64,000 bases of DNA from assembly GCA_027605045.1 (NCBI GenBank), contig JAQFWX010000010.1, positions 1 to 64,000 of the forward strand, in the 5' to 3' direction. Each line of letters begins with the position of its first letter. Within the stretch, counting starts at the first letter, position 1. The notes below the pieces were generated by a model that saw only the letters and a list, made by a program, of their open reading frames with translations, ran no database searches and was not told where the DNA came from. This stretch comes from Phallus indusiatus. Its lineage: Eukaryota; Basidiomycota; Agaricomycetes; Phallales; Phallaceae. Position numbers and translations under genes: made by a program. Below are positions 60,819 through 64,000 of this stretch, one piece after another.

Positions 60819-60841
60819 AATGATCACCGCAGGTGATCATT
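60819..60841. repeat. Perfect 10-bp hairpin at the polyprotein stop codon
   Basis: Arms AATGATCACC and GGTGATCATT with loop GCA overlap the TGA stop of the copia frame (60837-60839) and abut the polypurine tract. Confidence 0.9.
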
Positions 60842-62522
60842 GCTCGATCACGCCCATCTCCTCTGTGTGTTTTTTGTGTTTAGGTCCAGGTATGGCTTTC
60901 GTCAATCCGTCTGCCATCATTTTTGACGTCGGAATGTATTTGAATTCGACAGATTTGTCCTTCACTTTCTTGCGTAGATAGTGGTACTTGACATCGATGT
61001 GTTTGGTTCTGGCGTGATAGGTTGGGTTTTTTGTGAGTGAAATAGCCCCCATGTTATCACAGTGTACCATCGTTGCTGATTTCTGTTCGTATCCGAGGTC
61101 TTTTAGCAGTTTTCTGAGCCAGATTGCCTCTTTCACGGCATAGTCAGCTGAGATGTATTCGGCTTCCGTCGAGGATGAAGAGACTATCTCATGCTTTTTT
61201 GATCTCCATGAAATAGCTCCTGAACCTAGTGTGAAGACATATCCACCCGTCGATTTTCGATCGTCCCTATCGGAGGCCCAGTCCGAATCCGTATGGCCCG
61301 TGAGTTTTATCTGCTCCTTTCCACCGAGTACCAGTCGGTGATTTTTCGTCCCATTTAGGTATTTTATTACCCGTTGGGCTGCAGTCCAGTGCACTTGTCC
61401 TGGGTTCTCATAGAACCTGGTTAGTCGCTGGACTGCGAACATTATGTCGGGCCGGGTGCTGACTGCAACGTACATCAGTGCCCCCACGGCTTCTCTGTAG
61501 GGTATGTTTTTCATCTTTATCTTTTCTTCGGTAGTCGTTGGTGACATTTCCTTTGTCAGGATGACGTGCGGGTCTAGCGGTGTCGAGACAGGGTAGGCTT
61601 CTTCGAGGTTGAAGCGTCTTGCAACTTCTTCAATGTAGGATTCTTGTGACAAAGTAATTGTATTCTCATGCCTATTTCTGTTGACCGCAATTCCTAACTG
61701 CCATCTTACAGGACCTTCATCAATCAGTTCAAAGTGCTTTGATAGGTCCTGTCGGGCGCGCTCAATCTCTGACTTTGAGGTACCCGCAACTGCCATGTCA
61801 TCCACGTGTACCGATGCCATCGTCTGTCCCGTTTGGGTCTTGCGCAGGTATAGACTGTGGTCTGCCGTAGACTGTTCGAAACCTTCCGCAGTCATGCTTT
61901 GGTGCAGCTTCTGCATCCACATCCTGCCTGCCTGTTTCAGTCCGTAGAGGGATTTTTCGAGCTTCGCGACCCAGTCTTCTTTTCCAGGTTCTTCCATGCC
62001 CTCCGGCTGTTCCATGTAGATGTCCTCGTCCAGAGTCCCATGGAGGAACGCGGTTTTGACGTCCATTTGGTGAATTTCCCAGTCATTTACGGCGGCTATA
62101 TGTAGGATTGCTCTCAATGATTCCATCCGTGAGACGGATGCGAACGTCTCATTGTAGTCCACTCCCTGGACTTGGGTGAATCCTCGGGCGACTACTCTCA
62201 CTTTGTACCGGGTAATGTCTCCCTTCTCGTTTCTTTTTACCGTAAAGCATGGTTTTGACTTAATAACGCGTCTTCCTTCAGGTACTTTTGTTCGTGGAAT
62301 CAACGTCCATACTTGATGCTTGTGTAGGGAGTTCATCTCGTCTAGGTACGCCGCCTTCCATTTCTCTCCATCTGTTGATGACTTAGCTTCCCTCCAGGTT
62401 GTCGGTTCGTTGTCTGAACTGTAGAAGCACTGTTCATCGTCGTCTATTTCATCTAGGAGTGGTACCCATCCATCCATTTCATCTGCTGCCATTGCTATTC
62501 TTTCCTCTTGCCGCCTCCTGTT
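60837..62522 (-). CDS. Copia polyprotein: reverse transcriptase and RNase H
   Basis: The frame contains the copia reverse transcriptase: 'WTLIPRTKVPEGRRVIKSK', 'VRVVARGFTQVQGVDYNETF', 'EIHQMDVKTAFLHGTLDEDI', 'KSLYGLKQAGRMW', and the catalytic box as VHVDDM (YVDD in many relatives). It continues to RNase H with 'HTDSDWASDRDDRKSTGGYV', 'SSSSTEAEYISA' and 'LTKNPTYHARTKHIDVKYHY'. No stop interrupts it. The first ATG is at 62492, but the frame is open to the insertion site at 62522 and is really the downstream part of one polyprotein. Confidence 0.93.
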   Translation of the reverse strand, partial: NRRRQEERIAMAADEMDGWVPLLDEIDDDEQCFYSSDNEPTTWREAKSSTDGEKWKAAYLDEMNSLHKHQVWTLIPRTKVPEGRRVIKSKPCFTVKRNEKGDITRYKVRVVARGFTQVQGVDYNETFASVSRMESLRAILHIAAVNDWEIHQMDVKTAFLHGTLDEDIYMEQPEGMEEPGKEDWVAKLEKSLYGLKQAGRMWMQKLHQSMTAEGFEQSTADHSLYLRKTQTGQTMASVHVDDMAVAGTSKSEIERARQDLSKHFELIDEGPVRWQLGIAVNRNRHENTITLSQESYIEEVARRFNLEEAYPVSTPLDPHVILTKEMSPTTTEEKIKMKNIPYREAVGALMYVAVSTRPDIMFAVQRLTRFYENPGQVHWTAAQRVIKYLNGTKNHRLVLGGKEQIKLTGHTDSDWASDRDDRKSTGGYVFTLGSGAISWRSKKHEIVSSSSTEAEYISADYAVKEAIWLRKLLKDLGYEQKSATMVHCDNMGAISLTKNPTYHARTKHIDVKYHYLRKKVKDKSVEFKYIPTSKMMADGLTKAIPGPKHKKHTEEMGVIEQ

Positions 62523-62786
62523 TGTAACGTTTCGTTACAGTTTACGATTAGCCCGGTTCTTACTGACTCACAACAAACAGTATAAAGCTGTATATTTGCA
62601 AGTGCAGGTAAGAAAGGCTGCCGGCGCCTTTACCGTTACGCGGTATTTACTGGTGTGACGGCGCCTATGTACATTACATAATACTAGGTACTTGTGCAGA
62701 CGACGATCGTCTGCATGCAATTGTATATATATACTAATATGTACTATGGGTAATAGTAGTCCGCTGGTCATAGCGGAATCGTTACA
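62523..62786. mobile_element. Hairpin-rich TIR element 1 (264 bp), inserted in copia
   Basis: It starts TGTAACGTTTCGTTAC and ends CGTTACA (plus strand), and is flanked by exact CTGTT copies (62518-62522 and 62787-62791). Removing the element and one CTGTT restores the copia codons. Inner hairpins: GTAACG/CGTTAC at the left end, TGCAGACGA/TCGTCTGCA at 62695-62715, TCCGCT/AGCGGA at 62760-62777 near the right end, and GGCGCC twice (62630s and 62670s). No coding potential. It resembles a MITE by size and ends, but the terminal inverted repeat is only 7 bp. Confidence 0.85.
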
Positions 62787-63279
62787 CTGTTCCGTTCTTG
62801 TCGGGCCCTGTCTTCCGCTTCTCTCACCTCTTGTACCGCCTGTTGTACCCGGGTTGTATGTGGTAAACCTCTAGCAGCTGCAGCTGCAGCTGTGGGGCGC
62901 CTTTGTCTAGTGGACCGGCGTAGGTTTTCTTCTCTTCCTTGTGCTTCTTGCTCACCCCCTTGTTCTGGGACTTCTTCCTGGATATCTTCTGGCAGTCGGG
63001 GTGCTTCCGGTGCTATTTCTGGCCCGACATTGATTTCGGGATAGGGCTCGGGAGTGCTTGCGTCCTCCACCGGGATCTCTAGCAGATCAATCATCCTTTG
63101 GGTGTTGCTCTGGGCTGGTGTTGGTGTCGGATGGATTTCATGTATTCTAGTCCCGTTGTCTGTTTCAATAAATCTTACATTTCTCGAGACATGCACACGT
63201 CCAGTTGACCTTTCATAGCATCTGTATGCCTTTGAATTTTGAGAGTACCCGATTAATACATGTTCCTTTGATTGTTCAC
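62787..63279 (-). CDS. Copia polyprotein: integrase-RT linker region
   Basis: The frame between the two insertions reads 'QSKEHVLIGYSQNSKAYRCY', 'ERSTGRVHVSRNVRFIETDN', then a low-complexity acidic and Arg/Ala-rich linker (EVPEQGGEQEAQGREENLRR and following), ending 'ARQERN' at the left insertion. This is the usual divergent segment between copia integrase and reverse transcriptase. It is in frame with both neighbours once the inserts are removed. Confidence 0.85.
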
Positions 63280-63600
63280 TGTAACGTTTCGTTACTTTTT
63301 ATAGTGTACCGCTTGCGGTACACAGTTTATATCACGCTGTAGTTTCACGCCACAAGTAACAGACCAAGGTGCTGTATTTTCTTTGTGGAGTAAAACAAGT
63401 TGCGCGTGCTGAATCAGCACGCGCGTAGCTACTACTAATGTATAGTTATTACATAATGGCTCGCCACGCCGCGGCGAGCCAGAGGCGTTAAGCGCCTCTG
63501 TTATTAGAGTAAGTAATAGTAACTACTGCAGAGGGCGAAGCCCTCTGCATATGCCTAAGTGGCATATACTCAATCCACCGCATGCGGTGGATCCGTTACA
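63280..63600. mobile_element. Hairpin-array TIR element 2 (321 bp), inserted in copia
   Basis: It starts TGTAACGTTTCGTTAC, identical to element 1 for 16 nt, and ends CCGTTACA. It is flanked by exact TTCAC copies (63275-63279 and 63601-63605). Eight hairpins follow each other: 63281-63295; 63304-63323 (GTGTACCGC arms); 63402-63424 (GCGCGTGCTG arms); 63457-63481 (TGGCTCGCC arms); 63481-63499 (AGAGGCG arms); 63527-63549 (TGCAGAGGGC arms); 63549-63567 (ATATGCC arms); 63573-63592, a perfect 20-bp palindrome starting ATCCACCGCA. No coding potential. Confidence 0.88.
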
Positions 63601-63825
63601 TTCACCTATCTTAGTGCTATTCTGTAGTAAAACGAACGCTCGAGAGCCGAATGCACGCAGGTGTGATACGTCAGGTTTTGATCCATGCCACGCTTCGTAG
63701 GGTGTCTTGCCTTTCAGGGCTTTGGTTGGGGTGCGGTTCTTTAGATAGGATGCTGTCAGGACACATTCTCCCCATGCTCGTTTTGGTAGGCCGGCACTTA
63801 TTCGCATGGTTCGTGTCAGGGTACG
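63601..63825 (-). CDS. Copia polyprotein: integrase C-terminal part
   Basis: The frame reads 'TLTRTMRISAGLPKRAWGEC', 'VLTASYLKNRTPTKALKGKT', 'PYEAWHGSKPDVSHLRAFGS', 'RAFVLLQNSTKIGE', matching the end of the copia integrase core and the following GKTPYE..W motif. On the right, homology stops abruptly near 63825, where a stop precedes 'RTLTRT'; sequence to the window end is pyrimidine-rich and not copia-like. Confidence 0.85.
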
Positions 63826-64000
63826 CTACCGCCGTCTCTCATTTTCTTATTTATTATCATCGGCATCACTTCCTTTCTATTTTATTTATCATTTCCATAT
63901 TTTACTTTCACTCTCCGTTTCCTTGTTCTGTCTCTATTTCACCTTCTCTACTCGCGCGTTGCGCTCGTACCGCGTGATGCCCGTGACATCACGTCGCTTA
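63826..64000. other. Non-copia sequence interrupting the integrase, cut by the window edge
   Basis: Pyrimidine-rich DNA on the plus strand with one hairpin near the edge (CGTGATG and CATCACG arms, about 63974-63994). It lacks the TGTAACG end of the two neighbouring inserts. It could be a third insertion, an intron (TAG precedes the integrase exon) or a rearrangement. Confidence 0.5.

Follow-up and report, generated by a model that had tools for sequence, protein, structure and literature searches.

Two hairpin-bearing inserts in a copia frame of Phallus indusiatus read as solo LTRs of sister Ty3/gypsy families

Among the small, hairpin-bearing and repeated sequences of eukaryotes, MITEs and the double-hairpin elements of fungal mitochondria are well-known examples that are not the LTRs of an autonomous retroelement. 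Solo LTRs, on the other hand, are remnants of such retroelements, and excerpts of a study on two strains of the fungus Pleurotus ostreatus report 609 and 585 of them, which were ascribed to LTR recombination (PMC4905642). The ends of LTR retrotransposons have also been tabulated as integrase motifs, and the part of the tabulation consulted here gives TGTNANR...CGTNACA for the rGmr1 group (PMC3601003). Finally, the crapaud LTR retrotransposon of Podospora, as described in the available sections of its report, comprises sister subfamilies whose LTR divergence is found mainly in U3 (PMC10787394).

The stretch of DNA analysed in this work (hereafter the window) comprises the first 64,000 nucleotides of contig JAQFWX010000010.1 of the Phallus indusiatus assembly, and contains two short inserts within one copia polyprotein frame. 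A preliminary description, made from the letters of the window, regarded both inserts as members of a single family of short mobile elements with common ends, unrelated stem-loop cores and a possible likeness to the hairpin elements of organelle genomes. The present analysis leads to a different reading, to which we assign a probability of about 0.98: the inserts are two solo LTRs of two sister Ty3/gypsy families (A and B), left behind by recombination between the LTRs of larger elements.

Direct reading of the window agrees with most of the anatomy first reported for the inserts. Both share the ends TGTAACG...CGTTACA, the 16-mer end TGTAACGTTTCGTTAC occurring exactly twice in the window against 0.04 occurrences expected by chance, and both are flanked by exact 5-bp repeats (Table 1). 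The hairpin announced just inside the right end is also present in the two inserts, as TCCGCT...AGCGGA at positions 62760-62777 of insert A (recognized by eye) and as hairpin H1 of insert B. Regarding the interiors, the A and B cores hardly align, and only in that sense does the word "unrelated" hold. The duplications directly abut the LTR ends in both window copies, which implies that the interior is missing there. When compared with the genome, both window copies show 98-99% identity to 39 other scored matches each, figures that rest on the scoring of 40 out of 157 candidates for one unit and of 40 out of 205 for the other. A search of Rfam over positions 62000-64000 gave nothing at the gathering thresholds.

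Table 1. Coordinates of the inserts, of the hairpins of LTR-B and of the interrupted copia frame in the window.
Feature	Position	Strand	Basis
Copia pol, 3' piece (RVT_2)	60837..62522	-	reading frame and Pfam profile
Target-site duplication CTGTT, left of insert A	62518..62522	.	direct reading; identical to 62787-62791
Solo LTR of family A, TGTAACG...CGTTACA	62523..62786 (264 bp)	-	direct reading and genome units
Target-site duplication CTGTT, right of insert A	62787..62791	.	direct reading
Copia pol, middle piece, second part of SH3 domain	62789..63277	-	frame and profile
Target-site duplication TTCAC, left of insert B	63275..63279	.	direct reading
Solo LTR of family B, hairpin array	63280..63600 (321 bp)	-	direct reading, genome units and folding
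H8 of LTR-B, terminal inverted repeat, U5 end; same 16-mer in A at 62523-62538	63281..63295	-	
H7 of LTR-B, 9-bp stem	63304..63323	-	stem search/mask
H6 of LTR-B, 11-bp stem	63402..63424	-	stem search/mask
H5 of LTR-B, 9-bp stem	63457..63481	-	stem search/mask
H4 of LTR-B, 8-bp stem, overlaps H5 by 2 nt	63480..63500	-	stem mask
H3 of LTR-B, 10-bp stem	63527..63549	-	stem search/mask
H2 of LTR-B, 6-bp stem used in mask	63550..63566	-	stem mask
H1 of LTR-B, 10-bp stem, ATCCACCGCATGCGGTGGAT	63573..63592	-	stem search/folding
Target-site duplication TTCAC, right of insert B	63601..63605	.	direct reading
Copia pol, 5' piece as far as used, first part of SH3 domain	63601..63822	-	frame and profile

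Both inserts interrupt one copia frame, which is read in three minus-strand pieces and can be traced to about position 63822. Removal of each insert together with one repeat restores this frame, as originally proposed, in the sense that the separately translated, not joined, pieces have frames that meet across each site. Independent support for a single interrupted copia frame comes from the SH3 domain (PF25597), which is continuous across insert B: its positions 1-24 are matched by the piece to the right of the insert with 26.7 bits (curated value of 27), and its positions 32-70 by the piece to the left with 46 bits. The outer copia pieces are 1078 nt apart in the window and would be 483 nt apart without the inserts. 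Among 28 genomic relatives of the right-hand piece, 24 show a spacing of 357-525 nt, three a longer one (797, 4146 and 7753 nt) and for one no partner lies within 9 kb. Half of the 24 (12) have both copia pieces in reading frames with an identical stated length, with no stop in the right-hand piece. Because most of the relatives (24/28) have the short spacing and thus lack the inserts, the latter are not part of the copia family, in agreement with the preliminary description. A DNA search of the assembly for further copies of this copia recovered the window copy alone, so that no empty site can be read at the DNA level and the empty site rests on the protein-level relatives.

Some side observations were made around this frame. 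In one copia relative (C123:300524-301445), the 797-nt linker holds a 16-mer end at C123:301353 that is absent from the B list, and this relative probably harbours a separate A unit, located elsewhere than the inserts in the window. The stretch 63870-64000 looks, by eye, like a repeat found next to an A element as well (L088/L089), and beyond the window there is a gypsy polyprotein with a chromodomain (L175, C2:64796-67800), which belongs to a different family.

A search of the whole host genome (67.2 Mb in 206 contigs) revealed 250 exact places of the 16-mer (130 in the plus and 120 in the minus strand) and none for its reversed control. A 24-mer classified 88 of these places as B-type, which form 16 same-strand pairs separated by 8.6-9.8 kb and no opposite-strand pair. 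A scan of viral contigs with the same 16-mer returned 82 stretches, a result that was set aside, as chance matches are to be expected, by our estimate, for 16 bases in such a collection. In the first 30 loci read, every left end was of either the A or the B type, and a plain scan detected a perfect 5-bp duplication in 13 of them. Altogether, 93 loci were reduced to 87 distinct units (51 A and 36 B), with usual lengths of 264 bp for A and 321 bp for B. With the right end of each unit picked among the occurrences of TTACA, and a preference for a matching duplication or for TCCTCCC that could favour "perfect" calls, 25 of the 87 units were solo with a perfect 5-bp duplication (19 A and 6 B), 28 adjoined the primer-side interior flank (...TTAAAAAAGA; 12 A and 16 B), 27 adjoined the polypurine-side interior flank (TCCTCCC...; 16 A and 11 B), three were solo-like without a duplication and four had no right end found. 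The expectation that other genomic loci would carry these ends together with target duplications is thus borne out. Moreover, the 5-mers of the outer flanks agree between a left and a right LTR in 17 cases, 14 of them on the same contig and strand; some of these 14 pairs are far apart (13-27 kb) and presumably contain nested insertions. Two of the other three agreements correspond to a swapped pair on contig C173, and the third one, between contigs C112 and C128, may be due to chance or to duplicated contigs.

The A and B units are therefore not short elements in their own right, as first thought, but the direct terminal repeats of Ty3/gypsy retrotransposons of about 9 kb. Pieces taken from inside one element of each family were compared with Pfam and encode reverse transcriptase, RNase H and integrase in the gypsy order. 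Reverse transcriptase, RNase H and the zinc-binding domain of the integrase score above the curated cut-off in the pieces of both families, and the integrase core (PF00665) stays below it in both (26.3 and 28.5 vs 32.6). Upstream of these domains, the A element gave a protease match and the B element a zinc knuckle, with no protease found by Pfam in the B piece. The pol pieces of A and B are 75% identical over 748 aa, and 1215 homologues were found among 8000 scored candidates, the homologues listed showing the same domains; the named ones among the best 120 of the 1215 belong to Phanerochaete, Trametes and Mycena, which points to a probable basidiomycete host. As for the full-length element with the same ends whose existence had been anticipated, it does exist in both families, but in the one A and the one B element read it encodes reverse transcriptase, RNase H and integrase and not a DNA transposase.

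In both families, pol and the 16-mer are on opposite strands; the 16-mer is consequently the U5 end, and the LTR sense in the window is minus. One correction to the preliminary description is that the coding sense of the inserts is the minus strand of the window. The sense purine run GGGAGGA (TCCTCCC in the orientation of the 16-mer), which precedes the 3' LTR in the 27 units mentioned above, is a putative polypurine tract, judging from its position and composition. After the 5' LTR, both families show the identical 14 nt TCTTTTTTAACACC (L105 and L089), which start an inverted repeat with the following GGCGTTA. A tRNA-type primer site (TGG...) is absent after the 5' LTR of either family, and the search for a self-priming partner of TCTTTTTTAACACC gave no convincing candidate, with no complement to the LTR longer than 7 nt. 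An additional open frame is located between pol and the 3' LTR in both families (L104:1818-2921, minus strand, 367 aa; L087:499-1203, plus strand, 234 aa). The two frames are related to each other (29% identity over 165 aa, E 1e-21), and the A copy gave neither a homologue at E 0.001 in a protein search nor a credible Pfam match. They may represent a third gene of both families.

These data bear on three other explanations for the inserts. Short inverted ends, 5-bp duplications and differing interiors would all be expected of a MITE-like or other short DNA-transposon family whose members keep common ends around variable cores and are mobilized in trans by a transposase. Such a family becomes extremely improbable given that the units are the direct terminal repeats of retroelements of about 9 kb, with gypsy pol in the two that were looked into, and that their interiors are not freely variable, all 30 loci read having an A or a B left end; in place of a MITE-like class there are paired direct repeats, a purine tract, gypsy pol and matching outer duplications. 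Equally remote is the possibility that the inserts are non-autonomous mini-retrotransposons of the TRIM/SMART kind, whose small size, LTR-type ends and target duplications they share: no terminal direct repeat was found inside either window unit, and each one is a single LTR from end to end. The suggested kinship with organelle-type hairpin elements does not stand either, the window being part of a 1.59-Mb contig with Med13, kinase and amidohydrolase frames. What persists of the original description is the mobile and hairpin-rich character of the inserts, their common ends and 5-bp target duplications, their independence from the copia and the existence of many other copies in the genome.

From the anatomy of the locus we infer that a full-length element of family A and, separately, another of family B would have integrated into an old copia copy. 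Their integrases would act on the LTR ends (TGTAACG.../...CGTTACA) and produce a 5-bp staggered cut in the target, resulting in the duplications. Homologous recombination between the direct LTRs of each element would then have deleted the interior together with one of the LTRs, so that each site retains a lone LTR flanked by its duplications. A and B share their ends because their integrases are close relatives, as indicated by the similarity of the pol pieces, with LTR bodies that have diverged; this combination made two sister families look like a single one with unrelated cores. The bodies of the two LTRs were also aligned in search of homology, but the alignment score was reached by 3 of 1000 shuffles under loose gaps and by 242 of 1000 under stricter gaps (44 and 611 of 1000, respectively, with L176 as the B copy), and for this reason homology is not claimed.

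Other rearrangements were seen among the full-length elements. B elements are nested inside A LTRs in two loci, L084 (duplication CTTTC) and L119 (GACGG = CCGTC). In contig C173, two B elements in opposite orientation (1881318-1890832, minus; 1944697-1953883, plus; loci L117, L118, L119 and L130) show swapped target duplications (CCGTC / CGTCT), which would mark either an inversion of the intervening stretch by recombination between the two elements or a mis-assembly.

A notable feature of family B is the hairpin array of its LTR. If perfect stems of 7 bp or more that do not overlap and have loops of up to 9 nt are counted, LTR-B has five and LTR-A two; 300 shuffles of LTR-B gave 0.24 on average and never more than 2. 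The sense RNA of LTR-B folds with -149.0 kcal/mol vs -89.5 (sd 5.0) for 60 shuffles (z -11.8), and the corresponding z of LTR-A is -4.6. For the analysis of variation, a stem mask of eight hairpins was used (H2, H4 and the terminal repeat being added), which covers 69 pairs and 136 of the 321 nt. It could be thought that each hairpin is a tiny mobile palindrome that inserted into the LTR by itself, an idea in line with their density and perfection, with the 116 exact places of the H6 core in the genome vs 88 B ends recognized by the 24-mer, and with the replacement of the H1-H3 region in one copy. Nonetheless, six of the H6 places lacking a B end were read (three fetched and three in other loci) and each proved to be a B-type LTR with a changed end, and no H6 core occurred outside such an LTR among the places read. 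Mobile palindromes are accordingly very unlikely, if slightly less so than the MITE and TRIM/SMART readings, and the hairpins, as far as the H6 places read show, travel with the LTR. The copy with the replaced region (L111, C34:469162) is a divergent 262-bp B-type 5' LTR in which the first ~95 nt, with H1-H3, have given way to other sequence and the TGTAACG end is kept, and so either H1-H3 are not indispensable or L111 is a recombinant.

The distribution of sequence variants among B copies bears on whether these stems are constrained. In 37 B copies, variants with respect to the window copy fall in the stems in 5 of 45 cases when present in at least two copies and in 18 of 27 when found in a single copy. 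After removing the positions used for finding copies and counting the rarer state, the values are 5 of 43 for shared and 15 of 23 for private variants (Fisher 1.2e-5). The copies of this set are related and may have undergone gene conversion, a large number of them were chosen for their likeness to the window copy, and both LTRs of one element enter as two copies. When the stem mask is moved around the LTR in a circle, just one of 273 shifts yields a number of shared variants in stems this low (mean of 16). The contrast weakens in stricter subsets, namely without the three most divergent copies (L176, L178 and L089; 4/25 shared vs 14/30 private variants in stems, p 0.022) or without CpG positions (3/37 vs 4/10, p 0.029). 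Taken individually, L176 differs from the window copy at 3 of 136 stem and 30 of 185 other positions, and L101 and L098 show the same contrast; L089, which lacks a stretch in H2/H3, shows none (14/136 and 21/185). Changes that keep the pairing account for 3 of the 5 shared and 7 of the 18 single-copy stem variants, both small counts.

Since private variants do occur in the stems, these are open to mutation and are not efficiently corrected from one arm to the other; the scarcity of shared variants there suggests that a copy whose stems are broken seldom becomes the source of further copies. On sequence grounds, a constraint probably acts on the LTR-B hairpins as long as the element transposes, RNA and DNA levels being indistinguishable in these data. 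The alternative is that they are neutral by-products without function: CpG-rich palindromes could persist by chance, LTR-A has far fewer hairpins and L111 manages without H1-H3. This is a somewhat unlikely but serious alternative, which has to face the avoidance of stems by shared variants and the outcome of the mask shifts, and is under less strain in the stricter subsets. A more specific proposal, offered tentatively and at slightly less than even odds, is that the array (seven hairpins over about 290 nt) has been selected, most likely acting in the RNA or the cDNA, and that this LTR would be largely a structural rather than a promoter module. Candidate roles would be, for example, 3'-end formation, packaging or strand transfer. 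Hairpin stems spared from shared variation would make it possible to test structural selection within an LTR.

A last point is how this locus compares with the systems already described. The reading as solo LTRs removes a candidate new class of mobile elements and makes the insertion ordinary in kind, but it also exposes a general trap, in which solo LTRs of sister families that share only the ends recognized by the integrase mimic a MITE family. The inserts are of the same kind as the solo LTRs of other fungi, one LTR without the interior, in the terms of the excerpts considered (PMC4905642), although their families were matched to no named one and, to judge from the literature and the homologues, may be undescribed. 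Within the tabulated motifs consulted, that of the rGmr1 group fits TGTAACG...CGTTACA, a likeness of motif and not a placement of the clade by a tree, and that of Sushi (TGTYANR) does not fit at its fourth base (PMC3601003). No hairpin-rich or palindromic LTR appeared in the titles and abstract beginnings of the open-licence literature searched, the portion of PMC3411680 at hand holds nothing relevant, and the words hairpin and palindrom are absent from the crapaud text (PMC10787394). As in the available account of crapaud, A and B are sister families with diverged LTRs; unlike crapaud, they are hardly alignable beyond their ends. Finally, the units of the window are similar to MITEs and to mitochondrial double-hairpin elements in their size, hairpins and repetition, but differ from both in being the LTRs of an autonomous retroelement.
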